Below are positions 7,842-41,209 of a DNA stretch of 49,689 nt, piece after piece. The stretch is taken from assembly GCF_003399635.1 (NCBI RefSeq), contig NZ_NBXB01000035.1, forward strand, positions 1-49,689, written 5' to 3'. The position numbers were made by a program, and so were the translations under genes. The notes below the pieces were generated by a model. The model saw only the letters and a program-made list of their open reading frames with translations. It was not told the origin of the DNA and searched no databases. Source of the DNA: Subtercola boreus. Lineage in GTDB: Bacteria; Actinomycetota; Actinomycetes; Actinomycetales; Microbacteriaceae. Numbering within the stretch: position 1 is the first letter of the stretch; each line of letters starts with the position of its first letter.

Positions 7842-7852
7842 CGGCCCGACTT

Positions 7853-21275: not shown

Positions 21276-21353
21276 GCAACCTCTCTTCACTCAGGCGTGA
21301 GCGACGGTCGCGCTGACCGACCCGTGAATACAATCAGCCATCGCTAAAGATGT

Positions 21354-21365: not shown

Positions 21366-21418
21366 TGGAATTCGAGCGGCGACCGCCGCTTGACACCTGC
21401 GATATGGCAGAGCACAAT

Positions 21419-21438
21419 CAAACCCTACGAACGGTTTG
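21419..21438. promoter_or_regulatory. Inverted repeat CAAACC-N8-GGTTTG
   Basis: A 6-8-6 inverted repeat lies 60 bp before the SnoaL-like gene start in the divergent intergenic region. Possible operator or 5' UTR hairpin; no partner identified. Confidence 0.35.
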
Positions 21439-23605: not shown

Positions 23606-23943
23606 CGATGCGTGTGACGAGAATCGACGACGCCGAGCCTTTCGACCCGGTCGGCCACCACGGGGTGGGACCGGTGCGCCTGCAGGGCGGCGAGTCCACA
23701 CCAACGACTGATTTCACCGTTGTGCTGTCGCACTACCTGCCCGGCGGCACGGCCGAACTCGCACCCCAGGTCTCTGAAACGGTGTATGTTGTGCTCTCCG
23801 GCGAGCTGGTGATGACCAGCGATGGCGACGAGCAGGCGCTGGGCCCGTTCGACTCGGTGCACTTCACCGTGGGAACCTTGCGCACGGTGGAAAACCGGAC
23901 TCATCTCCCGGCCAGCATGCTCGTCATCCGGGCGGTGGACTGA
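23602..23943 (+). CDS. Small cupin-fold protein lacking usual metal histidines
   Basis: A 113-residue single cupin barrel: LSHYLPGGTAELAPQVSETVYVVLSGEL, then ALGPFDSVHFTVGTLRTVEN. The normal metal motif G(X)5HXH(X)3-4E is not kept; its His positions read as Glu-Leu-Ala-Pro. It is therefore likely a binding or isomerase-like protein rather than a metal dioxygenase. It follows an AGGAAGG ribosome site and overlaps both neighbours. Confidence 0.75.
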   Translation: MTMRVTRIDDAEPFDPVGHHGVGPVRLQGGESTPTTDFTVVLSHYLPGGTAELAPQVSETVYVVLSGELVMTSDGDEQALGPFDSVHFTVGTLRTVENRTHLPASMLVIRAVD

Positions 23944-24803
23944 TGCGCGTCGTCGGGGCCCGAACGAGCGACGGAAGCGTGTTCGTCGGGGAACTCAGCG
24001 AGGACGGCGGCCGGGTGACCGTGTTCGCCGACAGGGACACGTTCTGGGCGTCACCCGCCGCACATCTGGAGGCGGGGCCGGGCGGGCCGACCCTTCAGTT
24101 GTCGGCGGTCACGATCGTGCCGCCCGTGGTGAACAACGCCCGCGTGCTCTGCATCGGTCTCAACTATCTCGATCACGTGAAGGAGGGGTCGTTCAAGGAC
24201 GAGTCGCTTCCCGAGGTGCCCACCCTTTTCGCCCGGTGGCCGCAATCTCTCTCCAGTGACGGCGCCGAGGTGCCGGTCCCGTCGGGCGAGGACGGTTTGG
24301 ATTGGGAGGGCGAGGTGGTCGCGTGGGTCGGATCCCGGCTGGTCGACGCTACTCCGGAGGAGGCTCTTGCTGCCGTCGTCGGCTACTCGACGTTCAACGA
24401 CATCACCTCGAGGCGGGCGCAGAAGCAGACCTCGCAGTGGATCATGGGCAAGAACGGCGACAGTTCCGGGCCGCTCGGGCCGATGGTGCCGGCAGCCGAG
24501 GTCGGTGATCTCCGAGACGGGCTGCAGGTGCAGACGCGCGTCAACGGTGAGGTCGTGCAACACGGAAGCACCGCCCAGATGATCTATGGGGTCGGCGAGA
24601 CGCTGGCGCACATCTCGCGAAGCTTCACCCTGAACCCCGGCGACCTTCTCGCCACCGGCACGCCGTCGGGCGTCGGCTACTCGCGTACTCCCCCGTGGCT
24701 GCTGCAGCCGGGCGACGTCGTCGAGGTCGAGATCGAGAGACTCGGGGTGCTGACCAGCCACATTGTCGATAACGGCCACCGTCTGAAAACAGACCACGCG
24801 TGA
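23943..24803 (+). CDS. Fumarylacetoacetate hydrolase (FAH)-family protein 2
   Basis: A 286-residue FAH-fold enzyme. LCIGLNYLDHVKEG is the family opening. The metal acids are in WEGEVVAWVG and NDITSRRAQ, and the end GDLLATGTPSGVGYSRTP is typical. ATG shares its A with the cupin stop (TGATG). It is last in the MhpA-like operon and would hydrolyse or isomerise the ring-cleavage product. It is distinct from FAH 1, suggesting two parallel branches. Confidence 0.87.
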   Translation: MRVVGARTSDGSVFVGELSEDGGRVTVFADRDTFWASPAAHLEAGPGGPTLQLSAVTIVPPVVNNARVLCIGLNYLDHVKEGSFKDESLPEVPTLFARWPQSLSSDGAEVPVPSGEDGLDWEGEVVAWVGSRLVDATPEEALAAVVGYSTFNDITSRRAQKQTSQWIMGKNGDSSGPLGPMVPAAEVGDLRDGLQVQTRVNGEVVQHGSTAQMIYGVGETLAHISRSFTLNPGDLLATGTPSGVGYSRTPPWLLQPGDVVEVEIERLGVLTSHIVDNGHRLKTDHA

Positions 24804-24866: not shown

Positions 24867-25565
24867 TTACTCCGTGATGAGGAGTCCGGCGTGCTTCGCC
24901 ACAGCCTTGCGGGTTCGCGAAACATCACCGTCGATGATCGCCGCGACGAGTTCCGCGTGGGTCTCGACGCGCACGTGGAGCCACTCGTCTGCGGACTCCG
25001 GGGCGTCATCGTGCATTGCCGCAACCGCGTGCTCCCGCACGAACCGAGTCATGGAGAGGTAGAGCGCCGAGGCCGTCTGGTTCGGGGAGATGAGGGAAAT
25101 ACGTTCATGCAGATCCCAGTTGGCGAGCAGGAACGGCGTCGTGCCCTTCGCCGCGGCCGTGTTCAGCCTGGCCAGCAGTCTCTTCATGTCGGCGATGTCG
25201 GCGGATGTACGGTGCTTGGCCGCGTCGGCGTCGATCAACACCTCGAGTGCCTCCCGCACGGCGACCGCCTCAGCGACGGAGGCAGGAGCGTCAGTGACCG
25301 CGAGCAGCGTGTGCCGGATGCGGACCATCGGGCCGGCAGCGGTCGCGAAGAGGCCTCCGCCGCGCCCCGGGCGGATCTCTGCGAGCCCCCGGTCGGCGAG
25401 CAGACGGATCGCTTCTGCAACGGTGGAACGCGCGAAGCCCGAGCGCGCCCTCAGAGAATCGATCGTGCCGATCAGTTCGCCGGGTTTGAACTCACGGTCG
25501 AGGATCTGCTGCTCGATCTCGCTCGCCAGCACGTTTGCACGCGTTACGCCCACGAACGAATTCAT
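24867..25565 (-). CDS. GntR-family regulator 2 (FCD subfamily)
   Basis: A 232-residue GntR regulator. The helix-turn-helix runs LASEIEQQILDREFKPGELIGT, then LRARSGFARSTVAEAIRLLADRGLAEIRPGRGGGLF. The FCD ligand domain follows (VREALEVLIDADAAKHR, LHERISLISPN, HAELVAAIIDGD). It is convergent with the FAH 2 operon and lies just downstream of the DUF3500 gene in the same direction. The CAACCGTTG box at 25591-25599 before its start suggests autoregulation, and a matching box at 21354 suggests control of the two central operons. Confidence 0.9.
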   Translation of the reverse strand: MNSFVGVTRANVLASEIEQQILDREFKPGELIGTIDSLRARSGFARSTVAEAIRLLADRGLAEIRPGRGGGLFATAAGPMVRIRHTLLAVTDAPASVAEAVAVREALEVLIDADAAKHRTSADIADMKRLLARLNTAAAKGTTPFLLANWDLHERISLISPNQTASALYLSMTRFVREHAVAAMHDDAPESADEWLHVRVETHAELVAAIIDGDVSRTRKAVAKHAGLLITE

Positions 25566-25587: not shown

Positions 25588-25599
25588 TCACAACCGTTG
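25588..25599. promoter_or_regulatory. TCACAACCGTTG box before GntR 2
   Basis: Exact inverse of 21354-21365, with symmetric core CAAC-C-GTTG, 22 bp upstream of the GntR 2 start. Confidence 0.45.
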
Positions 25600-25614: not shown

Positions 25615-26754
25615 TCACCACGACCAGTCGTTGGCCCGGAGCTCCATGCCGGCACTCGACGTCGTGCGCGTCGACAGATGCGAGCCGTGCTCGGCAAGGT
25701 GAGCCTGGTGAGCCTCCAGCGAGTCGTGGGCGAAGTCGTGCTCGAAGTCGCGGATCACCGAATGGATGTGATTGCCGTTGTCGACCGCATTCACGAGTTC
25801 GATCAGCAGCGACCGCGTCTGTACCCGGAAGTAGTGCGGCGTGCCGCGAACGAAACCGCCAGCCCAGGCGAAGCGGATGCCCGTGGGGCCGTCAGCGGCG
25901 AGCTGTGAGCGGTATTCTGCGGCGGCCGCTGCAGGCAGACGCGCGAGGAACGTCTCGACCAGGCGGTCGAGCGTGGCCCGCTGGGACTCGTCGAGCTCAT
26001 CTCCCGCGATGCCGGAGGGCTCAGCGCGCACGAGGGCCAGCGCCTTCCTGTCGTCGGTCGTGATCTGATACTGCGGCATGCCGAGGTCGTAGTGGTCGGG
26101 ATATTCGAGGGCCCCGATGTGAGACACCTGGCGCGAGACGAAATCGGCGGGAGCGACATCGTGGATCACAGCCGAGATGCGCTGCTGGTCATCCAGTGAC
26201 TCGATGAGCGCGAAGCCGAGACCCTCGTCGTCGGCGAGAGGGTTGAGCACCCCGGCGCCGATGACCGGCTGTTGGCCGAGTGCGCTGGGGGTGGTCGAGA
26301 TCCAGCGCTGGTTGACGATGGTGACATTGAGGCACACGTGGTGGCCGAGGAAGCGCAACGACCAGGTGTCTTCGAACCCCGGCCTGCCGAAGATGCTCAG
26401 GAAGTACGAGTCGGAGGTACGCCAGAGCGGCGCCCCGACTCCGAGAAAGTCAGCCTCGATCTTGCGGAGCACGTGCTCGAGCTGCATGATCGCGAGGATT
26501 TTCGTGTAGACCTCGTGCGACACGACGAGCCGGACGAGGTCGAGCACGACCACCTTCTGGTGACGATCGAGAGTGTGCAGCGAGACACCGATGCGGTCGG
26601 GTTTGGGGATGATGTCCCAGTCGAGCCGCCGTGGGTCGTCGAAGTCGAAGACGGCCGCCGCTCGCTGGTCGGCGGAGAACGTGTCGAGCAGGCCGATGAC
26701 GCCGACCAGGAGCTTCTGGATGGTCTGTGCGTCTTCGTACGGGGGATTCGTCAC
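25615..26754 (-). CDS. DUF3500-family protein
   Basis: A 379-residue protein matching the DUF3500 pattern: WSLRFLGHHVCLNVTIVNQRW with the family's GHH-x-x-x-N, then QQRISAVI and, near the C-terminus, SLLIELVNAVDNGNHIHSVIRDFEHDF. The conserved His residues suggest a metal or catalytic site, but the family function is not known to me. No signal peptide is seen. It is divergent from the quinone-reductase/CocE operon. Its place in this island suggests a catabolic role. Confidence 0.8.
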   Translation of the reverse strand: MTNPPYEDAQTIQKLLVGVIGLLDTFSADQRAAAVFDFDDPRRLDWDIIPKPDRIGVSLHTLDRHQKVVVLDLVRLVVSHEVYTKILAIMQLEHVLRKIEADFLGVGAPLWRTSDSYFLSIFGRPGFEDTWSLRFLGHHVCLNVTIVNQRWISTTPSALGQQPVIGAGVLNPLADDEGLGFALIESLDDQQRISAVIHDVAPADFVSRQVSHIGALEYPDHYDLGMPQYQITTDDRKALALVRAEPSGIAGDELDESQRATLDRLVETFLARLPAAAAAEYRSQLAADGPTGIRFAWAGGFVRGTPHYFRVQTRSLLIELVNAVDNGNHIHSVIRDFEHDFAHDSLEAHQAHLAEHGSHLSTRTTSSAGMELRANDWSW

Positions 26755-26842
26755 TGAATGTCCTTTGTCTGACGTAAAAGGCTCTAACCATTATGGCCTT
26801 TGCTGCCCCGAGAAGTAAATCATCGCGTGATGATAAAAGATC

Positions 26843-26895
26843 TTGACACTGAACTACCGCGGTGCGCATAATCGAAAACATCGCAACCATTGCGA
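26843..26895 (+). promoter_or_regulatory. Sigma70-like promoter plus TCGCAA-cca-TTGCGA operator
   Basis: TTGACA (26843-26848) and CATAAT (26867-26872) are 18 bp apart. The perfect inverted repeat TCGCAA-CCA-TTGCGA follows at 26881-26895, over the expected transcription start. It contains CAACCATTG, similar to the GntR 2 box core CAAC-N-GTTG. It would drive the operon beginning at 26917. Confidence 0.55.
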
Positions 26896-26916
26896 ATGTT
26901 GAGCGAAGGAGCTCTC

Positions 26917-27921
26917 GTGACCGCTGTTCCAGCTGCGATCATCGACCGGCCAGGCGCCGAACCGCGGACGGGATCGATCGACCTGCCGCAGCGTGAACCG
27001 GGCCTGACGTTGCTGGCCGTGTTGGCAGCACCTCTCAACCCTCTCGACCTCCTGATCGCCTCCGGCGGTTTCCACTCAGCCCGCCACGAAGAGCCGTACG
27101 TGCCGGGCAGCGAATGCGTGGGCACTGTGCTGGAATCCGACTCGCACCCTGTCGGCACGACTGTCTATGCCGAGCTGCACGTCTCCCCTGCGGCGCCCGG
27201 CGCCTTCGCAACCCACGTGCTCGTCGCCGATCACCTCATTACCATCCTTCCTGCGGGTATTGATCCTGTGCGAGCTGCGGCAGTCGGGAATTCGGGGATC
27301 GCCGCGTATCTGCCCCTCATCGAAACCGTCGCCCTCCGTGCCGGAGAGACGGTGCTCGTGCTGGGCGCAACAGGTGCTGTCGGCCAACTGGCTGTGCAGG
27401 TCGCCCACCGGCTCGGTGCCGGGCGAGTGGTCGGCGTGGCGCGAGACCGTGAGGCGCTCGAACGATTGCTGACGATCGGCGCAGATGCCGTGGTCGAGTT
27501 GCGCGCGAACGAAGAGGCAGAGCAACTGGCGGAGCGCATCCGCGCCGTATCCGGCCCGGTCGACGTCGTCTTCGACGGCATCTACGGACTGCCGCTCGAG
27601 GCAGCACTCCACGTCGCTGCGCCTCGGGCGCGCCTCGTGAACGTCGGCAACCTGGCCGGCCCGACCGCCGAAGTGCCGGCCGGCCTGCTTCGCGGAAAGC
27701 AGCTCACACTCTCCGGCTTCGCCGGAATCAATGTTCCTCCAGCAGAGAAGCAGGCAGCTCTCGCCTGGCTCTGGAAAGCGGTCAGCGCCGGCGAACTCGA
27801 CCTGGCGATCACGACCGTCACGCTCGAAGACCTTCCGCGCGCCTGGCGAGCCCAGGCCGCATCTCCGCACGCGAAGTACATCGTCGTGCCGAATCAGACC
27901 GACGAAAGTGAGAACCGATGA
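26917..27921 (+). CDS. Zinc-free MDR oxidoreductase (NADPH:quinone reductase-like)
   Basis: A 334-residue medium-chain dehydrogenase/reductase. LAAPLNPLDLLIASG and PYVPGSECVGTV are the N-terminal pattern, and the nucleotide-binding motif is VLVLGATGAVGQLAVQVA. No structural zinc cysteines are seen, fitting the quinone oxidoreductase/enoyl reductase group. GTG 26917 with AAGGAG six bases upstream was chosen over a TTG at 26890 without a ribosome site. It overlaps the first CocE hydrolase by 4 bp. It could reduce a quinone or enone intermediate. Confidence 0.87.
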   Translation: MTAVPAAIIDRPGAEPRTGSIDLPQREPGLTLLAVLAAPLNPLDLLIASGGFHSARHEEPYVPGSECVGTVLESDSHPVGTTVYAELHVSPAAPGAFATHVLVADHLITILPAGIDPVRAAAVGNSGIAAYLPLIETVALRAGETVLVLGATGAVGQLAVQVAHRLGAGRVVGVARDREALERLLTIGADAVVELRANEEAEQLAERIRAVSGPVDVVFDGIYGLPLEAALHVAAPRARLVNVGNLAGPTAEVPAGLLRGKQLTLSGFAGINVPPAEKQAALAWLWKAVSAGELDLAITTVTLEDLPRAWRAQAASPHAKYIVVPNQTDESENR

Positions 27922-30296
27922 CCCTGCCACCGACTGAAGGCCCCGTGTCGACCGGACTGTTCACTGGCCCGACAGTCGGCGTCGCCTATGCAACACCCAC
28001 CCTCACCGGGCGCACGAACGAACGTGGCGAGTTCGAGTACCGAGCGGGAGAATCGGTGGTCTTCTCGATCGGCGGACTCGTTCTGGGCTCCGCCGAGGGC
28101 GCACCCCGCGTGAACCTCGCCCAGCTCGTCGACCGCAACGACGGAAAGCTCGACCGACTGCACGACCCGATGGTCACGAACCTCGCCCGTTTCGTGCAGA
28201 CCCTCGACCGCGACGGTGACTACGAGAACGGTGTGACCATCGCTCCGGCGGTTCACAACCTGATCGGCCCGACCGTGCTGAACCTCAACCAGGCGGCCAC
28301 TGATGCCGAAGACGTGACCGAAGCCTCGGCCGGCGCCACGAGCCCGGGTACCGCAGCCATGGTCGCGTTCTCGACCGACCAGACGATCACGTTCGCCACC
28401 GACCCCACGGTGCGCGCGCTCCTCGCCACGCTCAACAACGCGCCGGGTGTGTTCACGGCGAACACGCCGCGGGGACTCCGCAACGCGGCGGCGGCCCGCA
28501 ATGAGCTGCGGCGCAACATCCGGGGCATCATCAAGCTGACCGACGTGCGCATGCCCACGCGCGACGGCTCATATGTCTGCGCCGACATCTTTTTGCCCGA
28601 CGACGGCCGGCAACATCCGGTGATCATGAACCAGGGCTTCTACGGCAAGAGCTTCGACCACGGCACGATCGGCAGCCCCGAACAGGCCGAGGCCAAGGAG
28701 GAGCTGGAAGACCGGTACTTCACCGGCAACCCCGACGGCCTCCAGTACGAGAATCACGAGAGCGTCGACTCCGCCGTATGGGTACCGAAGGGATACGTGT
28801 GCATCCGCGTCGACGCGCGCGGTGTCGGAAACAGCCCAGGACTCCAGGCGCCGTTCAGCAGACAACAGGCGGAGGACTACTACGACGCCATCGAATGGGC
28901 GGGCACCCAGCCCTGGTCGAACGGCAATGTGGGCCTCTGGGGCATGTCCTACCTCGCGATCACCCAGCACACCGTCGCGAGCCTGCAGCCGCCACACCTG
29001 AAGGCAATGGTCGCACTCGGCACCGACTCCGACCTCTACAACGAGGCGCTCTACGGAGGTGGGCTCTACGGCGAAGGCTTCTGGACCTGGTGGCGGGCAG
29101 CGATGACGGGCCACAACTTCCACGGCGAGCGCGCCGAGACCGACTGGCTCGATCGAATGCTCGCCACGCCGTTCGACGACCCCGAGGCGTACGGCGAACA
29201 CGGCGCGATCTTCATGAAGCCCGATATGTCGAAGGTCACGACGCCGGTGTGGATCGTCGGCCCGCAGACCGGTGTGGTCATCCACCAGCTCGGCAGCAGT
29301 GAGACCTTCATCCGGTCGACGGGTGTCGAACAGAAGAGGTTCGACTTCGTCGACGCCTGGTTCCCACACAGTTACAAGCACTCCACCATCGACGACCACG
29401 AGCGCTTCTTCGACCACTTCCTGAAGGGCGAAGACAACGGCGTGATGGCGGGCCCGCCCGTGCGGGTGCAGGTGCGCACCGGCAACGGCGGGCACCACGT
29501 CCTCGAGGAGAACGAGTGGCCCATCGCCCGCACCACCTACGAGCGCTGGTACCTCGACGCGACGGCCTCCGAATGGTCGGGAGACAGTCACGGCAGGGAG
29601 CTGCTGAGTGTCCGGCCAGCAGCCCCGACCGAGGGAGCGTCGGCGTCCTACTCCGCCGAACTCGATCGCGGGCATCCCATCCCCGCGCCGACGGGATACG
29701 TGGGCGGAACGCCGCGCTGGTCGACGGGTGTCTCGTTCGTCAGCGAACCTGTCGAGGAGGACATGCTGCTCGCCGGGTACATGAAGGCCGGGCTCTGGGT
29801 GTCAGCGACGACCTCTGACCTCGACCTGTACGTATCCCTCCGGATCATCGACGAGAACGGCCGCGAGATTCGCTACGAATCGCTCGTTCCGCCCATCGAT
29901 CCGGCGAACATCCACCCGGTGGGCCACGGCCTGCTCAAGGTATCGCACCGCACGCTCGACGAGAGGCGCTCGACCGACCACTGGCCGGTTCCGTCTCATG
30001 CCGAGGCCGACCATCGGCCGCTCCAGCCCGGAGAGGTCGTCTACGCCGAGGTGGGCCTGTACCCCTCGACCGCGCTGATCCGCCGCGGGTCGCGACTGCA
30101 GGTGGATGTTCAGCCCTACTCCCCCGCCGGCATCCCCTCACGGGCTTACGACGAGAGCTACCACGCCGGAGCAACGAACACGATCCACACCGGAGCCGAA
30201 CATCCCAGCTTCATTCAGCTGCCCATAGTGCCGGCGGACACCGCATCCGCCAGCCACGCAGCATCCACAGACCTCGCAGCAGACAAGGAACAGTGA
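27918..30296 (+). CDS. CocE/NonD-type hydrolase A with extra N-terminal domain
   Basis: A 792-residue alpha/beta hydrolase of the X-Pro dipeptidyl-peptidase/CocE group. Residues 1 to about 195 form an added domain (VGVAYATPTLTGRTNERGEF, GESVVFSIGGLVLGSA, NLARFVQTLDRDGDYENGV) resembling domains of secreted proteins, yet no signal peptide is present. The hydrolase part starts near residue 210 (MPTRDGSYVCADIFLP). The nucleophile is S344 in LWGMSYLAITQ. The C-terminal jelly-roll contains GVSFVSEPVEED. The usual catalytic Asp region reads VGPQTGVVIHQ with no Asp. An ester or amide is the probable substrate. Confidence 0.85.
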   Translation: MTLPPTEGPVSTGLFTGPTVGVAYATPTLTGRTNERGEFEYRAGESVVFSIGGLVLGSAEGAPRVNLAQLVDRNDGKLDRLHDPMVTNLARFVQTLDRDGDYENGVTIAPAVHNLIGPTVLNLNQAATDAEDVTEASAGATSPGTAAMVAFSTDQTITFATDPTVRALLATLNNAPGVFTANTPRGLRNAAAARNELRRNIRGIIKLTDVRMPTRDGSYVCADIFLPDDGRQHPVIMNQGFYGKSFDHGTIGSPEQAEAKEELEDRYFTGNPDGLQYENHESVDSAVWVPKGYVCIRVDARGVGNSPGLQAPFSRQQAEDYYDAIEWAGTQPWSNGNVGLWGMSYLAITQHTVASLQPPHLKAMVALGTDSDLYNEALYGGGLYGEGFWTWWRAAMTGHNFHGERAETDWLDRMLATPFDDPEAYGEHGAIFMKPDMSKVTTPVWIVGPQTGVVIHQLGSSETFIRSTGVEQKRFDFVDAWFPHSYKHSTIDDHERFFDHFLKGEDNGVMAGPPVRVQVRTGNGGHHVLEENEWPIARTTYERWYLDATASEWSGDSHGRELLSVRPAAPTEGASASYSAELDRGHPIPAPTGYVGGTPRWSTGVSFVSEPVEEDMLLAGYMKAGLWVSATTSDLDLYVSLRIIDENGREIRYESLVPPIDPANIHPVGHGLLKVSHRTLDERRSTDHWPVPSHAEADHRPLQPGEVVYAEVGLYPSTALIRRGSRLQVDVQPYSPAGIPSRAYDESYHAGATNTIHTGAEHPSFIQLPIVPADTASASHAASTDLAADKEQ

Positions 30297-30298
30297 CC

Positions 30299-31567
30299 AT
30301 GGCCGCCACACTCGACAAGATAGAACGCCTGACCGAGATCCTCGGAAAGCTCCGCGCGCTGGGCCCGACCCTGCGTGAGCGAGCACTCGAAGCCGAGCGC
30401 GCCGGGCGACTCTCCGACGAGACCATCGCCGACCTCGCCTCCACCGGGGCATTCGATATCGCGAGCCCCCGCGAGTTCGGCGGCGAGGAACTGTCGGTGA
30501 GGCAACAGCTCGACGTGATCGTTGAGGCCTCGAAGTGGGACGGCTCCGTCGGCTGGGTCGTCTGGGCGGGAGCTTCCACCGACTGGATCCCTGCCGGTTC
30601 AGGCCCGCGCGTTGTCGAAGAGGTTTACGGGCCGGAGTGGGCGGGCCCGCGAGTCGCCGGATCGAGCCACTTCCCCGCCAGCCGAGGCCGAGCGAAGCGA
30701 GTCGACGGCGGCTGGATCCTCTCAGGCGGACCCTGGACATTCGCGACCGCCTCGCTGTGGGCCCCCTACACGAACCTCGGATGCATCGCCGAAGACGACC
30801 ACGGCGGAACATATCTGGTTGCCGCGCAGGTTCCCCGCAGCGAGCTGGTCTTCCTCGATGACTGGCACGTCGCCGGCATGCGCGGTACCGGCAGCATCTC
30901 CGTGAATCTGCGAAGCGATGAGCTGTTCGTGCCCGAGTACCGCGGGGTCGACTTCCGCCGGATCACCTCCGGCGCCATCGAGAGCGGTCTGGCCGGCTCC
31001 CTCTGGAAGGCGCCGGCTCTCGGCTGGTCTTTCAGCCTGATGGCGGGCATGTCGATCGGCATCGCACAGGGCGCGCTCGAACGTTTCCTCGAGCGATCGG
31101 CGGGCCGAAGCATCCGGGGCACCTCGTACAAGAACCAGCTCGAGGCGCCGCTCACGCACCTCATGCTTGCCGAGGTGCATTCAAAGATCCAGTCCGCGAC
31201 CCTGATGATGCGCGCCAACGCCGACGAGACCGACCGGCTCGGCGAGCTGGCCGCCGCCGGAACGCCGGCTGACGCGGACGACATGCAGCGGTTCAGCGCC
31301 CGCGTGCTGATGGAGACTGCCTACGCCGCCAAGTGGTGCGCCGAAGCGATCGAGCTCCTGCAGCGCAACTCCGGGGCGACCGCGATCATGGACTTCGAGC
31401 CCATCCAGCGGTCGTGGCGCGATGCCCGCGTCATCACCCTGCACGGGGCACTTAACCTGGAGGCCCTCTCCGAGAACTTCGGGCGACTGATGGCGGGCAT
31501 TCAGCCCCACCAGTTCGCCGGAATCACGACGCTCGACCGCTTCGCTCCCGCGCCCGCCAGTCGTTGA
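30299..31567 (+). CDS. Acyl-CoA dehydrogenase-fold flavin monooxygenase A (group D)
   Basis: A 422-residue protein of the HsaA/HpaB-type oxygenase component family. ASPREFGGEELSVRQQLDVI and GSVGWVVWAGAS belong to the N-terminal helical part. VDGGWILSGGPWTFATAS and DDWHVAGMRGTGSISVNL form the middle beta domain. The C-terminal helical domain ends LHGALNLEALSENFGRLMAG. The usual acyl-CoA catalytic Glu is not evident. Such oxygenases need an external flavin reductase; the fusion at 20112-21275 is the only candidate in the window. ATG 30299 was chosen because AAGGA has better spacing than to the GTG at 30293. Confidence 0.85.
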   Translation: MAATLDKIERLTEILGKLRALGPTLRERALEAERAGRLSDETIADLASTGAFDIASPREFGGEELSVRQQLDVIVEASKWDGSVGWVVWAGASTDWIPAGSGPRVVEEVYGPEWAGPRVAGSSHFPASRGRAKRVDGGWILSGGPWTFATASLWAPYTNLGCIAEDDHGGTYLVAAQVPRSELVFLDDWHVAGMRGTGSISVNLRSDELFVPEYRGVDFRRITSGAIESGLAGSLWKAPALGWSFSLMAGMSIGIAQGALERFLERSAGRSIRGTSYKNQLEAPLTHLMLAEVHSKIQSATLMMRANADETDRLGELAAAGTPADADDMQRFSARVLMETAYAAKWCAEAIELLQRNSGATAIMDFEPIQRSWRDARVITLHGALNLEALSENFGRLMAGIQPHQFAGITTLDRFAPAPASR

Positions 31568-31615
31568 TGAATTAAATCAACGTACGTTGATTTAATTCAT
31601 CTTCAGACGTACGCT
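31566..31615 (+). promoter_or_regulatory. 36-bp perfect palindrome and promoter of hydrolase B
   Basis: Positions 31566-31601 are a perfect 18+18 palindrome, with half-site ACGTTGATTTAATTCATC. The centre is TCAAC-GTAC-GTTGA (31577-31590). A -35 TTGATT at 31587 and a -10 TACGCT at 31610 are 17 bp apart, so the palindrome covers the -35. The same TCAAC-N4-GTTGA and TACGCT layout occurs at 34120-34158. A TetR 2 operator is the best reading; a bidirectional terminator is an alternative because it overlaps the stop of the previous gene. Confidence 0.65.
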
Positions 31616-31668
31616 CGGAGACAACACACAGCACTGGCCTCACGGCCCGTAGAAAGAAGGAGCTCACG

Positions 31669-33408
31669 ATGAGTGAAGACATGAAGATCTACCTGCCGTC
31701 CAGCCCGCTGCCGGCACCTCGCACCGGAGTCCTGACAGCCTTCGATCCCGGCACCCGCACCCTCGAGGCCGGCTTCCAGGTCGCCCCGCCGTTCAAGCCG
31801 ATCCCCGTCGATATCGTCTTCGAGAAGGATGTCGCAATCGCTCTTCGCGACGGAGTGACGGTCCACGCGGACATCTTCCGGCCCGTCGGCCCGGAGAAGG
31901 TGCCCGTCATCGTCGCCTACAGCCCCTACGGCAAAGCGCAGGGCACCTCACCGAGCGTGATGGGCGTCTTCGGTCTGGTCGGGCTCTCGAACTCAATCGT
32001 CTCCGGGCTCGAAAAGTTCGAAGGACCCGATCCCGCGTTCTGGGTGGAGCAGGGCTACGCCATCTGCAACCCCGACATCCGCGGCGTCGTCGACTCCGAC
32101 GGCGACTCCGTACTCTGGGACCGACAGGATGGCCGCGACGCCTACGACATCATCGAATGGCTTGCCGAACAGGAATGGTGCACAGGCAAGGTCGGCATGA
32201 GCGGCACCTCCTATCTGGCGGCCACGCAGTGGTTCACCGGTGCCGAGCAGCCCCCGCACCTCGCGGCCATCAATCCGTGGGAAGGGGTCAGCGACGTCTA
32301 CCGCGACCTCGTCATGCGCGGCGGAATGCCCGACATCGGGTTCGGCCAGCAGCTCCAGAACGGCAGCTTCTTCGGCAGGAACCGCAGAGAGAACATCGTG
32401 GCGGAGGTCGAACAGTATCCGCTCATCAACGACCTCTGGGCCAACAAGATTCCCGACTTCGAACGCATCACAGTGCCCGCCTATGTCGTGGCGAGCTACT
32501 CGAACACCCTGCATACAGCTGGCACCTTCCGCGCCTGGCGCCGCATGGCGTCAGAGCAGAAGTGGCTGCGCGTGCACAACAGCCAGGAGTGGCCCGACTA
32601 CTACGACGAAGACAACCAAGCGGAGCTTCTGCAATTCTTCGACCGCTACCTGAAAGACGAACAGAACGACTGGGACAAGACCCCCCGAGTGCGTTATTCG
32701 CTGCTCGACCTGGAAGGCGGCGACCGGGTGGCCATCGCGGCCGACCAGTTCCCGCCCGCTGAGGCGCACTCGACGAAGTACTACCTGAATGGTCGCACCC
32801 GCACCTTGGACACGGCCGCGCCCACCGACGACGTTCCGACCGCATACGCCGCCGCCTCGAACCCCAATGCTGTCTCATTCCTCACCAGCTTCGATGTGGA
32901 AACCGTGCTGGTGGGCTATCCCAAGGCTCACCTCTTCGTGGAGGCCCGGGATGCAGACGACATGGATCTGTTCGTGCTCATCCAAAAACTGGATGCCCAC
33001 GGTACCCCGCTCGAAGCATTCACGACGCCCAACCGGAGTGCGATCATCCATGACCTGACCGACTACGGCGCAACCATCCTGAAATACAAGGGTTCGGATG
33101 GGCGGCTACGGGTTTCCGCGCGCAACCTCGACAGTGCGCTCAGCACCGAGGAGGTTCCGGCCCACACGTTCGACGTCGTCGAGAAGCTCGCACCGGGCCA
33201 GATCGTCGACATCGAGATCGACCTGCTCCCGCTCGGGCTCGTCTTCTACCCGGGAGAGCAACTTCGGTTCGTGATCAGCGCCCGCAACCTGCTCGGCACG
33301 ATGATGCCTGGAATCCAGGAGTTCGTGCCTGCAAACAGTGGGCAGCACGTCATCCACACCGGAGGCGAGCACGCCTCCTACCTTCAGCTGCCGGTGCAGA
33401 CGCGCTGA
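31669..33408 (+). CDS. CocE/NonD-type hydrolase B
   Basis: A 579-residue hydrolase of the same group as A and C but without the long N-terminal domain; a short N-terminal segment of about 45 residues precedes IVFEKDVAIALRDGVTVHADIFRP. The nucleophile is S181 in GMSGTSYLAATQW. The region of the catalytic Asp reads VVASYSNTLHTAGTF, with Asn where related proteins often have Asp. VHNSQEWPDYY follows. The C-terminal jelly-roll is conserved (GYPKAHLFVEARDADDMDLF). It has its own promoter and an AAGGAG ribosome site. Confidence 0.87.
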   Translation: MSEDMKIYLPSSPLPAPRTGVLTAFDPGTRTLEAGFQVAPPFKPIPVDIVFEKDVAIALRDGVTVHADIFRPVGPEKVPVIVAYSPYGKAQGTSPSVMGVFGLVGLSNSIVSGLEKFEGPDPAFWVEQGYAICNPDIRGVVDSDGDSVLWDRQDGRDAYDIIEWLAEQEWCTGKVGMSGTSYLAATQWFTGAEQPPHLAAINPWEGVSDVYRDLVMRGGMPDIGFGQQLQNGSFFGRNRRENIVAEVEQYPLINDLWANKIPDFERITVPAYVVASYSNTLHTAGTFRAWRRMASEQKWLRVHNSQEWPDYYDEDNQAELLQFFDRYLKDEQNDWDKTPRVRYSLLDLEGGDRVAIAADQFPPAEAHSTKYYLNGRTRTLDTAAPTDDVPTAYAAASNPNAVSFLTSFDVETVLVGYPKAHLFVEARDADDMDLFVLIQKLDAHGTPLEAFTTPNRSAIIHDLTDYGATILKYKGSDGRLRVSARNLDSALSTEEVPAHTFDVVEKLAPGQIVDIEIDLLPLGLVFYPGEQLRFVISARNLLGTMMPGIQEFVPANSGQHVIHTGGEHASYLQLPVQTR

Positions 33409-33432
33409 GCACACTCCCGCAACGGCGTGCTC
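33407..33432. terminator. Weak inverted repeat between convergent genes
   Basis: GAGCAC-N14-GTGCTC lies between hydrolase B and the convergent TetR 2 gene. There is no T-run, so it is only a possible terminator. Confidence 0.25.
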
Positions 33433-33446
33433 GACATTCTCCTGGG

Positions 33447-34094
33447 CTACATGACGACACCGAGCTGAGCGCTGTGCGCTCCAGCCGAGAGAATGGCCTG
33501 GATTGCGGGGGCGATGTATCCCACCAGCGAGTCCCGGTCCTGCCTGACGAGTGCGTCCAAGCCGACCAACCGTCGCCCCACGACGACACCGACGAGCATC
33601 GATGATGCGATCTCGATCCGGGTTTTCATGTCGGCGTCGTGCTGCAGCCGCGGACCAAGGTCGACGAGCACCCTCTCCTGAATGAGGTCCCTGAGCTGAG
33701 TGGCCGCCTGTTCGCTTCCGATAGCGGCGCGGAGGAGGGCCTGCAGCGGCTCGGACTCTCCTGGATCCCCATCCCACACCTCGAAGAAGGCGCGCGTGAC
33801 CCGCTCACCCAGAGAGGCTTCGGGACCGTCGAACGCTTCGGCGATCCGGGAAATGGTGTTTGGTCCCGACGCGATGACGGCGGCGAAGAGTTCGTTCTTC
33901 GAGCCGAAGTACTGCATCACCAGGGAGGCGTCGACCCCCGCGTCACCTGCGATACCCCTGATCGTCGAACCCGAAAAGCCGTCTTTCGCAAAGCGGGCAC
34001 GAGCCGCGAGCAGGATGGCTTCGCGAGATGCACGGGAACCCAACCGAGGCCCCGTACTGAGACCTCTGGCAGAAGGAGCCTGATCAATCGACAT
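33447..34094 (-). CDS. TetR-family regulator 2
   Basis: A 215-residue TetR protein with helix-turn-helix AILLAARARFAKDGFSGSTI, RGIAGDAGVDASLVMQYFGSKNELF, then a helical ligand domain ending VVVGRRLVGLDALV. It is similar along its length to TetR 1 (17466-18092). It is divergent from the 34200-38285 operon and convergent with hydrolase B. Palindromes with the shared core TCAAC-N4-GTTGA at 31577 and 34120 suggest it represses both operons. Confidence 0.9.
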   Translation of the reverse strand: MSIDQAPSARGLSTGPRLGSRASREAILLAARARFAKDGFSGSTIRGIAGDAGVDASLVMQYFGSKNELFAAVIASGPNTISRIAEAFDGPEASLGERVTRAFFEVWDGDPGESEPLQALLRAAIGSEQAATQLRDLIQERVLVDLGPRLQHDADMKTRIEIASSMLVGVVVGRRLVGLDALVRQDRDSLVGYIAPAIQAILSAGAHSAQLGVVM

Positions 34095-34114
34095 ATTCGA
34101 AGTCTAGGTAAGAA

Positions 34115-34158
34115 AGTTCTCAACAACTGTTGAGAACTAAACTTTGCGGTCGTACGCT
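34115..34158 (+). promoter_or_regulatory. 24-bp palindrome and promoter of the SnoaL-2 operon
   Basis: AGTTCTCAACA-AC-TGTTGAGAACT (34115-34138) is a perfect 11-2-11 inverted repeat with core TCAAC-AACT-GTTGA at 34120-34133. A -35 TTGAGA (34130) and a -10 TACGCT (34153-34158) are 17 bp apart. It is placed between TetR 2 (start 34094) and the operon. Confidence 0.65.
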
Positions 34159-34199
34159 GGGCCTCACGCTCCCGATCTCTGAACAAAGAGGAATGCAAA

Positions 34200-34259
34200 A
34201 TGGCACAACGAAGTGCACGTCTCATCCGTATCACCATGCCGAAGGCCGGCCAGAAATGA
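34200..34259 (+). CDS. 19-residue leader peptide coupled to the SnoaL-like gene
   Basis: A short frame, MAQRSARLIRITMPKAGQK, starts at ATG 34200 with AAAGAGG at good distance. Its TGA overlaps the next gene's ATG as AAATGA at 34256-34259. The next gene lacks its own ribosome site, so translation is likely coupled to this leader. The peptide is basic. It is not confirmed to be functional. Confidence 0.45.
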   Translation: MAQRSARLIRITMPKAGQK

Positions 34260-34807
34260 AGACGCTGGAGGAATTGAGCGCACGCGCAGAGATCCACGAC
34301 GTTCTGCTGCGGTACTGCCGCGGCCTCGACCGGGTCGACATGGATCTGGTTCGAAGCGCTTTCTGGCCTGATGCGTGGGTGCAATTCCCTCAAAGCCTGC
34401 ACCGCGGCTCCGTCGACGGGTTCGTCACCTTCCTCTCAGGCGAGATGCCGCGATTCGTTCGCACAATGCACCTGCTGGGCAACAGCCTGGTCGAGTTCGA
34501 CGGGCCCACCATCGCTCACGTCGAGACGTACCTGAACGCCGACCACCAGGGTACCGAGGTCCACCAGTGGGCAAATGAGAACGTCAAACTGTGGGCTCGA
34601 TACCTCGACCGGTTCGAACAGCGCGACGGAGTCTGGCTCATCGCCAAGCGCGCCCTCGCAACCGGGTGGATGTTCCGGTACCCCAAGGAGGGATGGTTCG
34701 ACGATCATCCCGATGCTTCGGCAAGCGGGAGGGACGGGAACGACCCGGCCGTAGAGCGCATCGCAGGCTTCGAAGGAACCCCCGTTTCACGAAAGGAATG
34801 GCCATGA
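34256..34807 (+). CDS. SnoaL-like / NTF2-fold protein 2
   Basis: A 183-residue SnoaL_4-type protein: LSARAEIHDVLLRYCRGLDRVDMDLVRSAFWPDA, then RTMHLLGNSLVEFDGPTIAHVETYLNA and WLIAKRALATGWM. It is distantly like the protein at 21498-22022. The start at 34256 begins the conserved domain and overlaps the leader peptide stop; an in-frame ATG at 34193 has its ribosome site too close. It overlaps the monooxygenase start by 4 bp. The role is probably in the same step as monooxygenase B. Confidence 0.8.
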   Translation: MKTLEELSARAEIHDVLLRYCRGLDRVDMDLVRSAFWPDAWVQFPQSLHRGSVDGFVTFLSGEMPRFVRTMHLLGNSLVEFDGPTIAHVETYLNADHQGTEVHQWANENVKLWARYLDRFEQRDGVWLIAKRALATGWMFRYPKEGWFDDHPDASASGRDGNDPAVERIAGFEGTPVSRKEWP

Positions 34808-36021
34808 TCACCACGACCGCCCTGCCGCAGGCAGCGGAGATCATCGCTCGGGTCGTCGAATTGCAGCCCTGGCTGCGCGACCAGCAGGCGATTGCCGAGC
34901 AGCAACGCCGAATCCCGCAAGAGACGATCGAGCGTCTGAGCGAGGCTGGTGTTTTCAGCCTCTCGAAACCAAAACGCTACGGCGGAGCCGACTTCACCAC
35001 CCGCGAAATGCTCGACATCTATCGGGCCCTCGGTTCAGGGTGTGGAGCCACCGCGTGGGTGGTGTGGGCGACCGCTGGCGGCAATATGTGGAGCAATGCC
35101 TTCGCGGACGAGGTCGTCGCCCCTGTATACGAGACGCCGTGGGTGGGCAACCGCACGTTCGCCGTGGGAGGCACGAGCAGGCACATGTCGGGCACCGCGA
35201 CGAAAGTCGACGGCGGCTGGATGGTGAAGGGCGCCTGGCCGTTCGCCACCGGAAGTGTTCACGCGTCACATGGATATCTCGCCGTCTTCTACGACGACAC
35301 CGACGACTCGAAAGTCGGGATGGTGCTCATCCCCAAGGAGCAGCTGATTGCCCGAAACGACTGGGATGCAATGGGCCTCGCCGCGACCGGCAGCCAGACA
35401 ATGGCGACGGATGGTGAGCTCTTCGTACCCGACGAGAGGTTCGGCTTTCCGGCAGAGCTGGCGGCTCGCACGGCAGAACTCGTATCTCAGGGGCGTGGTC
35501 CCCGGCGCGGCGGCCTGCCACGTTCGATCGTGTCGAGCACAGGAGTCGCGCTCGGAATGGCAGATCAGGCCATGGAAGTCTTTCTCGCGTCCATTGGGCG
35601 CCGGAGCGTTCCCTATTCTCCCTACACTCGGCAGGTCGATGCGCCGGTGGCCCATCACATCATCGGGCGTGCAGCGATGCAGATCCGCGCAGCGGGACGC
35701 CTCGCGGATGCCACCGTCGCCGAGTTCGATCGTCTCGACGCCGAAAACCGGGATCCGAACGCTGACGAGATTCTGCAGTTCCACACGGATGCTGCGTACA
35801 TCTGGAACGAGTGCGCGACAGCGATCGAGACGCTGTTGCGTGCATCCGGTGCGTCTGCGATCAGCAAACGGATGCCCTTGCAACTGATCGCGCGTAACTG
35901 CCGCGCAGGCAGCTTGCACGCCGCCCACAACGTGGACACCTGGCTGGAGAACCTCGGCCGCTCGATGGTCGGGGTCACCGCCGGGCCCTCCTCGATGAGC
36001 GTGCTCGAGCGGCGTTCCTGA
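34804..36021 (+). CDS. Acyl-CoA dehydrogenase-fold flavin monooxygenase B (group D)
   Basis: A 405-residue paralogue of monooxygenase A: LSKPKRYGGADFTTREMLDIYRALG, GATAWVVWATAG, VDGGWMVKGAWPFATGS, NDWDAMGLAATGSQTM, and the C-terminal SLHAAHNVDTWLENLGRSMVG. It belongs to the two-component oxygenase type that needs reduced flavin from a separate reductase. ATG 34804 follows AAAGGA and overlaps the SnoaL-like stop. Its stop overlaps the ATG of hydrolase C (TGATG). Confidence 0.85.
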   Translation: MITTTALPQAAEIIARVVELQPWLRDQQAIAEQQRRIPQETIERLSEAGVFSLSKPKRYGGADFTTREMLDIYRALGSGCGATAWVVWATAGGNMWSNAFADEVVAPVYETPWVGNRTFAVGGTSRHMSGTATKVDGGWMVKGAWPFATGSVHASHGYLAVFYDDTDDSKVGMVLIPKEQLIARNDWDAMGLAATGSQTMATDGELFVPDERFGFPAELAARTAELVSQGRGPRRGGLPRSIVSSTGVALGMADQAMEVFLASIGRRSVPYSPYTRQVDAPVAHHIIGRAAMQIRAAGRLADATVAEFDRLDAENRDPNADEILQFHTDAAYIWNECATAIETLLRASGASAISKRMPLQLIARNCRAGSLHAAHNVDTWLENLGRSMVGVTAGPSSMSVLERRS

Positions 36022-38285
36022 TGGCCCTCACCGGAGTTCTGGCCGGGCCGATCGCGGGCCTCGCCTACAAGACCCCGACGCACTCGGGTCTGACAAGCGA
36101 ACGGGGCGAGTTCGAATACGAGGCGGGCGAGCGGATGACGTTCCTCCTCGGCGAGAACGCTATCGGCTATGTGACCGCCGGCCCTCGCCTCCACCTCGCG
36201 CAGATCGTTCCACGGGTCGATGGCAATCTCGACAAATTGAAGGATTCGGGTCTCACCAACATCGCTCGTCTGATCTTCACCCTCGGGCGCACCGAGTTCC
36301 GTGACGAGGGCACGGCCATCCCGCACAAGGTGCATGACATCATCGGGGCTCGGCGCATCGACTTTCGCCATGACGCCGATTATTCGGCGACCGGACGAAT
36401 CGACAAGATCCAGCACTTCACGGAAGACCCGGTCGTCATCCGACTGCTGAAAGACCTGGCCGAATCCGGTGTCTTCGGTGAAATTGAACCGCGCACTCTC
36501 TGCACCCCAGCGAATGCGCGCAACGAACTGCGCCGGAACGCCCTGGGCATCCTCCGCTTTCGAGACGTGAAAATCCCCCTGGAGAACGGATCGTACGTGC
36601 TGGCCGACGTCTTCCGCCCCTCAGAGGCCGGCAGCTACCCGGCGATCGTCAACTGCGGGCCCTACGGGAAAGCGTTCAACCATCACTCGATCGCCAACGC
36701 CGCAGACCTCGAACACCATGAACTGGAGGAAGAGCAGTACTTCTTCGGCAATTCGGGCGATCTCCAGTTCGAGAACCACGAAACCGTCAGCACGGCGGTG
36801 TGGGTGCCGGACGGCTACGCGGTCGTGAGGGTCGACATGCCGGGAGCGGGCGCAAGCCCAGGACAGCTCGCGCCCTGGGGAATCGCTGGCGCCGAAGCAT
36901 TCCGAGATGCGATCGAATGGGCAGGCACCCAGCCCTGGTCAAACGGAGCTGTCGGAACCTGGGGCATGTCGTACTTGGCCATCAGCCAGCACGCAGCAGC
37001 CAGCCTCCACCCCGAGCACCTCAAGGCCATGATCGCGATCGGAACCGATGTCGACCTGTACGAAGAGGTCGCCTACAACGGCGGGGTGCTGAACGAACAG
37101 TTCTGGCCGATCTGGAGGGCCTCCGGTCTCACCCCACCCATCATCGGCGAGCCGAACATCGTCGACTTCGTACAGATCATGAAAGACAGCCCCTTTCGAG
37201 ACTCGGATCCCGACGCGATCTTCGGCCCGCGCGCCCGGGTGTTCATGAGTCCCGACCTCAGCGACGTGACCGTGCCACTCTGGGCCGTCGCCTCTACGAC
37301 TCACCTTTCGAACCTCCACCAGCTCGGCGGGAACTCTGCCTACTCAGACACACCGACACCTCATAAGAAGCTCGACCTCTGGGAGGACTGGTTCCAGCGC
37401 GCCTACTCGGCGGAAGCTGTCTCCCAGCACAAAGCGTTCTTCGACTACTGGCTCAAGGGAATCGAGAACGGCATCATGGACACCCCGCCGATCCGGCTCG
37501 AGATTCGAACCGGGGATGGCACCTCCTACCTTCAGGAAGAGAACGAATGGCCGATCGCGCGCACGGAGTACCCGAAGTGGTACTTCGACGCGCGACCCTC
37601 TGACTGGATTGGCTTCGGGATGCGGCCGGACTTTCTGCGCCTCAGTACCACGGTGCCGGGCGAGTCAGCTCAGGCGAGCTATTCTGCACAAATTCAGCTC
37701 GCACCCTGGGCCCCCATCGGAAGCCCGCGAATCGATCCCGCATCGGTCGAATCTGATCCCCACGTCACAGGTGTCTCCTTTATCAGCGACCCTCTCGCCC
37801 ACGATGCGGTCATCGCTGGTTTCGGAAAAGTGCACCTGTGGGTCGAGTCGACGAGTGAAGACATCGACCTGTTCGTGTCCATTCGTGTGATCGACCATGA
37901 AGACCGTGAAGTCGACTTCGCCGGATTTACGACGTTCGGTTTTCCGTTCCGAATCGCCCCCCTCACCAAAGGCTGGCTCAAAGTCTCTCACCGCGCACTC
38001 GACAAAGACCGGTCGACAGAGATCCAGCCGAGACACACGCACCTGAAAGCGGACTACGCACCCCTCCAGAATGGAGAAATCGTACCGGTTGAGGTCGCCC
38101 TCGTTCCGAACGTCGGAAAAATCCTGAAAGGTCAACGCATCCGCGTAGACATCCAGCCCCACGATGGCGTAGCACACGGTTTGACCCACGAGTACAACCC
38201 GAGCTATCACGACGGAGCGACCAACAGAATCCACACCGGCCCCGATCACCCCGGTTACATCCAACTGCCCATCATCCCGACCTGA
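36021..38285 (+). CDS. CocE/NonD-type hydrolase C with extra N-terminal domain
   Basis: A 754-residue paralogue of hydrolase A with the same added N-terminal domain: IAGLAYKTPTHSGLTSERGEF, GERMTFLLGENAIGYV, TNIARLIFTLGRTEF. The hydrolase domain begins near residue 185 (IPLENGSYVLADVFRP). The nucleophile is S317 in WGMSYLAISQH. The catalytic-Asp region reads VASTTHLSNLHQLGG with no Asp. The C-terminal jelly-roll is present (GVSFISDPLAHDAVIAGFGK). It is translationally coupled to monooxygenase B. A cytoplasmic ester or amide hydrolase is inferred. Confidence 0.85.
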   Translation: MALTGVLAGPIAGLAYKTPTHSGLTSERGEFEYEAGERMTFLLGENAIGYVTAGPRLHLAQIVPRVDGNLDKLKDSGLTNIARLIFTLGRTEFRDEGTAIPHKVHDIIGARRIDFRHDADYSATGRIDKIQHFTEDPVVIRLLKDLAESGVFGEIEPRTLCTPANARNELRRNALGILRFRDVKIPLENGSYVLADVFRPSEAGSYPAIVNCGPYGKAFNHHSIANAADLEHHELEEEQYFFGNSGDLQFENHETVSTAVWVPDGYAVVRVDMPGAGASPGQLAPWGIAGAEAFRDAIEWAGTQPWSNGAVGTWGMSYLAISQHAAASLHPEHLKAMIAIGTDVDLYEEVAYNGGVLNEQFWPIWRASGLTPPIIGEPNIVDFVQIMKDSPFRDSDPDAIFGPRARVFMSPDLSDVTVPLWAVASTTHLSNLHQLGGNSAYSDTPTPHKKLDLWEDWFQRAYSAEAVSQHKAFFDYWLKGIENGIMDTPPIRLEIRTGDGTSYLQEENEWPIARTEYPKWYFDARPSDWIGFGMRPDFLRLSTTVPGESAQASYSAQIQLAPWAPIGSPRIDPASVESDPHVTGVSFISDPLAHDAVIAGFGKVHLWVESTSEDIDLFVSIRVIDHEDREVDFAGFTTFGFPFRIAPLTKGWLKVSHRALDKDRSTEIQPRHTHLKADYAPLQNGEIVPVEVALVPNVGKILKGQRIRVDIQPHDGVAHGLTHEYNPSYHDGATNRIHTGPDHPGYIQLPIIPT

Positions 38286-41030: not shown

Positions 41031-41209
41031 GCGAACGTGTCGCCCTGATGACGATGACAGGTGATGAATCTTCTCCCACACCGCTCCGCCCAAGCAGGCA
41101 GGTCTTCTCTGTCGGTTCGCGAAGCCGCGGCGTGGGCTCCCTCATTGATCACATTTCTTCGTGCGCACATCCGCAGCTTTGCGTGCACAGTCAAGGACAC
41201 CTCTTTCTC

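Follow-up and report, generated by a model that had tools for sequence, protein, structure and literature searches.

Gene content of the cluster

The window analyzed here is an entire 49,689-base contig (C35) of the 3.85-Mb genome of Subtercola boreus, and from about 18.1 to 38.3 kb it carries an oxygenase-rich, aromatic catabolic type of gene cluster in which two group D flavin monooxygenases (MoA and MoB) lie among three proteins of the CocE/NonD fold (HydA, HydB and HydC). The original prediction had placed the cluster at 26917-38285 and had recognized no named pathway in it; likewise, the literature searches that we ran returned no named bacterial pathway matching the cluster. The genes that it named are real, in that those of 26890-38285 are long open frames, at or beside their predicted positions, that all pass Pfam cut-offs. 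Its interval, although correct for the genes inside it, omits the half of the cluster at 18.1-26.8 kb (i.e., the putative ring-cleavage half), where Pfam and NCBIfam scans add nine genes: ECH, CoAT, FlavRed, SnoaL0, FMOA, a cupin, FAA, GntR1 and DUF3500.

The half that had been described begins with MDR (26890-27921, +), a quinone-oxidoreductase-like protein with a Pfam ADH_zinc_N match that scores 109 bits against the PIG3 model, under the cut-off of 296.8. There follow HydA (27918-30296, +), in which an N-terminal domain (about residues 1-190) precedes a CocE/NonD alpha/beta-hydrolase fold and a PepX_C domain; MoA (30293-31567, +), an HsaA-like group D flavin monooxygenase; and HydB (31669-33408, +), a CocE/NonD protein without the N-terminal domain. 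Beyond TetR1 (33447-34094, -; Pfam TetR_C_16 and TetR_N), the probable regulator of the second operon, lie SnoaL1 (34256-34807, +; Pfam SnoaL_4, 90.3 bits), whose frame is open from 34130 and whose likely start is 34256; MoB (34804-36021, +), the second HsaA-like group D flavin monooxygenase; and HydC (36021-38285, +), a paralogue of HydA with N-terminal domain and CocE/NonD fold.

In the other half, ECH (18089-18895, -), of the enoyl-CoA hydratase family (Pfam ECH_1, 139.9 bits), adjoins CoAT (18892-20115, -), a type III CoA-transferase (Pfam CoA_transf_3, 379.7 bits, from residue 146 of a long frame) whose open frame extends to 20529 and whose likely start is 20115, and FlavRed (20112-21290, -), an HsaB/HPAH-C1-like flavin reductase with a C-terminal extension (Pfam Flavin_Reduct, 140.3 bits). 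ECH occurs together with CoAT/FlavRed again in three loci of other genomes (L031, L042 and L054; L and G numbers denote the loci and genomes compared). On the opposite strand are SnoaL0 (21498-22022, +; Pfam SnoaL_4, 98.7 bits; predicted start), which is SnoaL-like; FMOA (22025-23605, +; Pfam FAD_binding_3, 202.7 bits; predicted start), an MhpA-like group A flavin monooxygenase that reaches 541.5 bits against NF004829 (cut-off 390); a small cupin of 113 residues (23602-23943, +; Pfam Cupin_2, 38.9 bits), between FMOA and FAA; and FAA (23943-24803, +; Pfam FAA_hydrolase, 220.5 bits), of the fumarylacetoacetate-hydrolase family. Counterparts of the cupin, 79-85% identical, adjoin FMOA/FAA in L022, L031, L042, L052 and L054. 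GntR1 (24867-25565, -; Pfam FCD and GntR) is a putative regulator of the GntR/FCD type, and the DUF3500 protein (25615-26754, -; Pfam DUF3500, 222 bits against a cut-off of 27.2) is a candidate ring-cleavage enzyme. Because their junctions measure only -4 or -1 bases, ECH-CoAT-FlavRed (given the CoAT start at 20115), FMOA-cupin-FAA, MDR-HydA-MoA and SnoaL1-MoB-HydC are likely to form four operons.

CocE-fold proteins without the canonical catalytic residues, and their partner monooxygenases

All three CocE-fold proteins exceed the cut-off of the CocE/NonD model TIGR00976 (66.3 bits), with 221.9 bits for HydA, 231.4 for HydB and 190.9 for HydC, and HydA and HydC are 45% identical (347/771 positions, E 0.0) over nearly their full length, including the N-terminal domain. 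The motif of the nucleophilic serine, GxSYxA, reads GMSYLA or GTSYLA in the window proteins; the serine is retained in 45 of 45 orthologue rows and, as S317, is invariant across the 29-row alignment A4. The canonical Asp (GWxD) and His (PWxH), on the other hand, were found in none of the 45 aligned HydA/HydC/HydB rows, the three window proteins included, the Asp column being the less certain of the two owing to an indel. A His within an (I/L/F)H motif (H433 of HydC) is invariant. The control set comprised nine CocE loci, of which only L118, L119 and L120 are canonical, with both GW[NFH]D and GPW[AST]H present; four (L122, L124, L126 and L129) were left out, apparently being in the wrong frame, and of the variants L123 and L127 neither has PWxH and the latter has the Asp. 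Eight more distant CocE relatives also lack PWxH, and four of them (L008, L009, L011 and L012) keep the Asp, as do two HydB-like proteins at 37-40% identity in L044 and L037, which fall outside the 45 rows.

Because the canonical Asp and His are gone from the three proteins and their aligned orthologues, plain ester or amide hydrolysis, the reaction that had originally been assigned to them, is doubtful. Compared with the Rhodococcus cocaine esterase CocE (1ju3), the window proteins have both residues replaced, and HydA and HydC add the N-terminal domain, which SACOL2612, a CocE/NonD protein of Staphylococcus aureus (PDB 3ib3/3iii), is without. In another genome (G001), hydA is interrupted near codon 90 and runs on in a second, overlapping frame (L021, 13557-15876), by mutation or by sequencing error.

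The N-terminal domain, of about 170 residues, gave a high-confidence model when modelled alone (pLDDT 89), with no strong match among solved structures and no Pfam match. It has a relative in the N-terminal part of a protein of the gammaproteobacterium Catenovulum adriaticum, to which HydA is 38% identical over 109 residues by BLASTP and to which the domain aligns in hhalign with a probability of 99 and an E-value of 7.7e-18. Judged by eye, that protein starts like a lipoprotein (LLSGC). No signal peptide was seen by eye in HydA, HydC or the proteins of L033-L036, which start within a few residues of the domain. By sequence comparison, then, the domain is clearly related to one of a lipoprotein-like gammaproteobacterial protein.

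MoA and MoB are 32% identical, and their scores against Acyl-CoA_dh_2 (80.6 and 63.6 bits, cut-off 22.7) place both in the acyl-CoA-dehydrogenase fold. Their best NCBIfam model is HsaA (NF045629), at 167.4 and 159.5 bits, short of the cut-off of 450; FlavRed, whose structural relatives are PDB 3rh7 and 5zc2, scores 180 bits against the HsaB model, short of 230, and is the probable electron donor of MoA/MoB. The HsaAB, HPAH C1-C2 and IppA1A2 systems have in common with them an acyl-CoA-dehydrogenase-fold oxygenase and a separate flavin reductase, but MoA, MoB and FlavRed remain under the HsaA/HsaB equivalog cut-offs, and MoA and MoB form distinct clades. In a tree of 56 rows, the clades of MoA (22 rows) and MoB (7 rows) each have support of 100/100 and are joined at 94/83, with stems of 1.53 and 2.09 changes per column that call for a long-branch warning. 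About 220 C-terminal residues of FlavRed (20112-21290) have no Pfam match. Because HPAH C1 is likewise a two-domain protein, this extension may, by analogy, sense the substrate.

Conservation, arrangement and regulation

A pattern-based scan of genome contigs with a 7-row HydA/HydC alignment led to 28 loci, 22 with a HydA orthologue (L029, L030 and L037-L056) and six of the HydC type (L031-L036). The HydA loci come from Actinomycetota, Chloroflexota, Dormibacterota and Pseudomonadota. MoA, at 74-86% identity to that of the window, is present in 20 of the 22, the two without it (L038 and L055) both being shorter than 10 kb, and in 15 of these 20 it lies 3' of HydA, on the same strand and within 250 bases. 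Since many contigs are cut, this count and those of the remaining genes among the 22 loci are lower bounds: SnoaL0 in 17, HydB (at least 55% identity) in 13, DUF3500, FMOA (at least 44%) and FlavRed in 11 each, MDR in 10 and FAA in 9. MoA proteins of all four phyla fall in a single clade, and because the window's MoA keeps 74-78% identity to members from Chloroflexota, Dormibacterota and Pseudomonadota, horizontal spread of the pathway is suggested. The cluster is rare: HydA/HydC matches at E ≤1e-60 occur in 4 of 12 Subtercola genomes, the window's included, and at E ≤1e-120 in one of 394 genomes sampled across the class, which is the window's own.

The sources and neighbors of these loci offer some hints about substrates. 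In the sphingomonad loci L044, L045, L046 and L051 the cluster includes a long protein, sharing 57-70% identity with its L044 counterpart, that looks by eye like a TonB-dependent receptor, which hints at a large substrate there; and the lichen-named sources, i.e., S. lobariae and the 'Lobaria' bin of L049, provide a hint, and only that, of lichen phenols.

The two hydrolase-monooxygenase pairs had been described as a duplicated module. That description fits only loosely, since the order within the pairs is reversed (Hyd-Mo versus Mo-Hyd), MoA and MoB form separate long-stemmed clades, and four Streptomyces/Amycolatopsis loci (L033-L036, each of 15.7-22.3 kb) have HydC with no MoA/MoB match. 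The kinship of the pairs is thus old rather than the result of a recent copy, and their parts can move separately. The window's gene order is found again in two other Subtercola genomes (G001 and G008). In S. lobariae, TetR1-SnoaL1-MoB-HydC lie on one contig and a further copy of MoB precedes HydA-MoA-HydB, beside DUF3500, on another. In a Lacisediminihabitans locus (L030), SnoaL1-MoB-HydC adjoin GntR1-DUF3500-MDR-HydA-MoA-HydB, and in a Paenarthrobacter locus (L031), FMOA-FAA are followed directly, on the same strand, by SnoaL1-MoB-HydC. This contiguity in L030 and L031 indicates that both pairs probably serve one pathway, an earlier idea that is therefore probably right. A reductase of the NmrA family also recurs, between MoB and HydC in L030 (1418-2272) and L031 (9106-9963) and further in L037, L041, L044, L048, L050, L052 and L054 (in part); none was seen among the cluster genes of the window.

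Two kinds of operator-like motif occur in the cluster. A perfect inverted repeat, AGTTCTCAACA-AC-TGTTGAGAACT (11+2+11; 34115-34138), lies between tetR1 and snoaL1 and is a probable TetR1 operator. Such a repeat appeared in 0 of 100 shuffles, this is its single site in the genome at ≤3 mismatches, and it can be recognized in the equivalent position of three further Subtercola loci (L021, L022 and L023), all with TetR1 orthologues. By a pattern test no repeat of this type is present in L030 (which begins inside SnoaL1), L031 or L033-L036. The second motif, AACCRTT, has eight copies in the window, five of them within three intergenic stretches that total 349 bases: FlavRed/SnoaL0 (21355-21361, -, and 21430-21436, -), GntR1/DUF3500 (25592-25598, +) and DUF3500/MDR (26786-26792, +, and 26885-26891, +, the latter at the MDR start). 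Promoter-like sequences are found at 21390-21418 (+; TTGACA-17-CACAAT), a weak case with 4 such sites found against 1.9 expected, and before MDR at 26843-26872 (+; TTGACA-18-CATAAT, 11/12 matches).

Because AACCRTT was first spotted by eye in the window, only the loci of other species constitute a test. In six of them (L030, L031, L040, L042, L052 and L054), the corresponding stretches make up 1,943 of 107,558 bases (1.8%) and hold 13 of the 23 copies, for a binomial p of about 2e-17 that is optimistic because the six loci are related; the reversed-pattern control gave 0/8 (0/10 over all counted segments). The segments counted were those of the window and eight loci. Left out were L024 (same genome as L052), L041, L053 and L056, with 4, 2, 1 and 2 matches, the last three on account of a different order or a short contig.

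We infer that GntR1 would bind AACCRTT and TetR1 the inverted repeat. On this assignment, each pair in this genome probably has a regulator of its own, GntR1 for the HydA-MoA side and the TetR for SnoaL1-MoB-HydC. This departs from the single regulon of the original prediction, in that the second pair has a repeat of its own and MDR-HydA-MoA-HydB has the AACCRTT motif that is common to the promoters of FlavRed/SnoaL0, GntR1 and DUF3500.

Elsewhere in the window, 1437-9711 holds a second gene group of aromatic type (an MFS protein, an aldehyde dehydrogenase, an Amidohydro_2 protein, a group A flavin monooxygenase that scores 463 bits against NF004780, cut-off 445, an IclR regulator and an Amidohydro_1 protein). 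A PDH-E1/transketolase-like protein (187.9 bits against an aceE cut-off of 859.9) lies beside an AsnC-type regulator at 9686-12728. Further along are a DUF1775 protein at 41048-41935 and a serine-resolvase-like protein at 44733-45386.

A possible route for phloroglucinol-type polyphenols

The fungal 1,2,3,5-tetrahydroxybenzene pathway includes a short protein without a known domain, and work by Martins in 2024 is said to place a monooxygenase and an FAA-like gene in the fungal cluster as well. In the window, a monooxygenase (FMOA), FAA and DUF3500 stand together at 22.0-26.8 kb, and the same trio recurs in L061, side by side with no HydA/MoA match, and in L059, with MFS, GntR and CoA-transferase genes. 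The DUF3500 protein of the fungal pathway (Aspergillus; AN10530, PhyA) is proposed to convert 1,2,3,5-tetrahydroxybenzene to 5-hydroxydienelactone (PMC12388069). In Rhodococcus qingshengii RL1, according to a table in PMC8416521, an MhpA-type hydroxylase, an MFS protein, a DUF3500 protein and an FCD protein carry neighboring locus tags. The window's DUF3500 protein matches PDB 9x86 (Amc20) with an E-value of 2e-28, and no publication on that structure was among the literature matches listed for its name.

Given the resemblance of DUF3500, FAA and the flavin monooxygenase to this fungal pathway, it is possible, though we say so tentatively, that the cluster serves to degrade, under aerobic conditions, a polyphenol of the phloroglucinol type, i.e., one whose 1,3,5-oxygenated ring bears an acyl or aryl group. 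The fungal role of DUF3500 and the clustering of FMOA, DUF3500 and FAA here, in L061, in L059 and in R. qingshengii RL1 lead us to read FMOA, cupin, FAA, DUF3500, GntR1, CoAT and ECH as a ring-opening module and FlavRed, MoA, HydA, HydB, SnoaL0 and MDR as an upper module, with a further branch of SnoaL1, MoB and HydC in some Microbacteriaceae and a Paenarthrobacter, joined in Subtercola by TetR1. In an order that we infer, FlavRed would supply MoA (and MoB) with reduced flavin, and FMOA would add a further hydroxyl and so bring the ring to the 1,2,3,5-tetraoxygenated level. DUF3500 would then open this ring, the cupin and the FAA hydrolase would break the ring-opened acid, and the CoA-transferase and enoyl-CoA hydratase would hand the product to central metabolism. 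HydA, HydB and HydC would either take off the substituent or modify an intermediate. Their reaction would be Ser-based but non-canonical, most likely the cleavage of a C-C bond beside a carbonyl rather than ordinary ester hydrolysis. SnoaL1-MoB-HydC would make up one branch of this pathway, with a separate TetR to control it.

A bolder version of this proposal is, as a whole, rather doubtful. It holds that the three proteins represent a CocE-fold class without the Ser-His-Asp triad that performs another, probably C-C bond-cleaving, step; that HydA and HydC captured the lipoprotein-related domain as an intracellular module; and that the pathway in which they act is the bacterial equivalent of the fungal 1,2,3,5-tetrahydroxybenzene pathway, was spread across phyla by horizontal transfer and consumes acylphloroglucinols made by lichens or plants.

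Several observations weigh against the phloroglucinol assignment, which rests on one proposed function of a fungal enzyme. With the fungal pathway the cluster shares a monooxygenase, an FAA-hydrolase-like gene and DUF3500, but it is bacterial, known from its genes alone and much larger, adding group D monooxygenases, three CocE-fold proteins, SnoaL and a cupin. Its DUF3500 protein is moreover divergent, at 222 bits against up to 345 elsewhere, and only 24-29% identical to those of L057-L063. Among the DUF3500-FAA clusters of other Actinomycetota (L058, L059 and L061), FAA is 58-68% identical to the window's, the GntR/FCD protein 43-47% and the CoA-transferase 40-42% (both in L058 and L059), and the flavin monooxygenase 31-45% (in L059 and L061), whereas DUF3500 is only 24-25% identical, and HydA, MoA, HydB and the cupin are not matched there in about 17 kb. 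In 20 other DUF3500 neighborhoods, hand-picked from the high scores among 63 places (two of them short), FAA was near in 6, FMOA in 3 and a cupin in 0, so that the presence of DUF3500 does not imply this pathway. Finally, DUF3500 was seen in 0 of 7 Pseudomonadota HydA loci (three of these being shorter than 14 kb). Glyoxalase-family (VOC) proteins occur in L044 (6462-7403 and 12196-13206) and L037 (12275-13261). Because L044 has two of them and no DUF3500 was seen there, ring cleavage may differ in loci of its type; since L037 has both VOC and DUF3500 proteins, the replacement of one by the other is merely possible.

The VOC proteins of L044 also bear on a flavonoid-type pathway, like fde (naringenin) or ifc (isoflavone), in which the A-ring receives a hydroxyl from a group A flavin monooxygenase and is opened by a ring-cleaving enzyme, and cupins and perhaps an alpha/beta hydrolase finish the breakdown. 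The ifc region is comparable in content: according to PMC11069340 it has a group A flavin monooxygenase, a VOC dioxygenase, cupins and a gene for an alpha/beta hydrolase, and disrupting this last gene left daidzein degradation unaffected. The likeness of FMOA and the cupin to these systems is at the family level only. Hydroxylation of a 5,7-dihydroxy A-ring at position 8 gives a 1,2,3,5-tetraoxygenated benzene, so that this alternative overlaps the phloroglucinol reading. Ring cleavage in fde and ifc, however, is by a VOC dioxygenase, and no VOC/Glyoxalase match was found among the window's cluster proteins scanned; nor does the ifc literature, in the portions available, mention a CocE protein or a group D flavin monooxygenase. 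We regard a flavonoid pathway as somewhat unlikely.

The original prediction is that the CocE proteins, as esterases or amidases, split an aromatic ester or amide and that the group D monooxygenases hydroxylate the phenol so released. It draws on the CocE_NonD scores and the retained GxSYxA motif, and it has a precedent in the isoprocarb/2-isopropylphenol route, where a carbamate hydrolase is followed by an HsaA-like two-component monooxygenase (PMC12442392). The absence of the GWxD Asp and PWxH His from all 45 rows speaks against it, and three CocE proteins would be excessive for one ester bond; on balance we consider it unlikely.

SnoaL folds are also found in polyketide clusters, and XiaF is the best solved relative of MoB, both of which would suit a biosynthetic or detoxification tailoring cluster of XiaF-like monooxygenase, SnoaL and CocE proteins. 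The FAA hydrolase, DUF3500 and CoA-transferase, the conservation over four phyla and a nearby PcaK-like MFS protein (under its model cut-off) make this improbable, as does the failure to notice any biosynthetic core enzyme among the proteins scanned, although no search was aimed at one. A secosteroid-like degradation of the HsaAB type is most improbable: HsaA and HsaB are the best NCBIfam models for MoA/MoB and FlavRed, but the scores lie below the curated cut-offs (450, 450 and 230), and the scans of the cluster genes brought no other gene of a steroid pathway to notice.

The protein families of the cluster are already known, and it is their combination with non-canonical CocE proteins that the searches run here matched to no named pathway. 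The gene set is common to some bacteria of several phyla and probably serves the breakdown of a plant or lichen phenol. If the phloroglucinol reading is true, it would represent an aerobic bacterial route for such polyphenols built on DUF3500, a family for which a ring-cleavage role has been proposed only in fungi in those parts of the literature found, and would supply a gene marker for finding it. Two questions could then also be put to the test, namely the function of SACOL2612-type CocE-fold proteins in which the usual catalytic residues are lacking, and the reason for the presence, in two of them, of an N-terminal domain with a relative in a lipoprotein-like protein.

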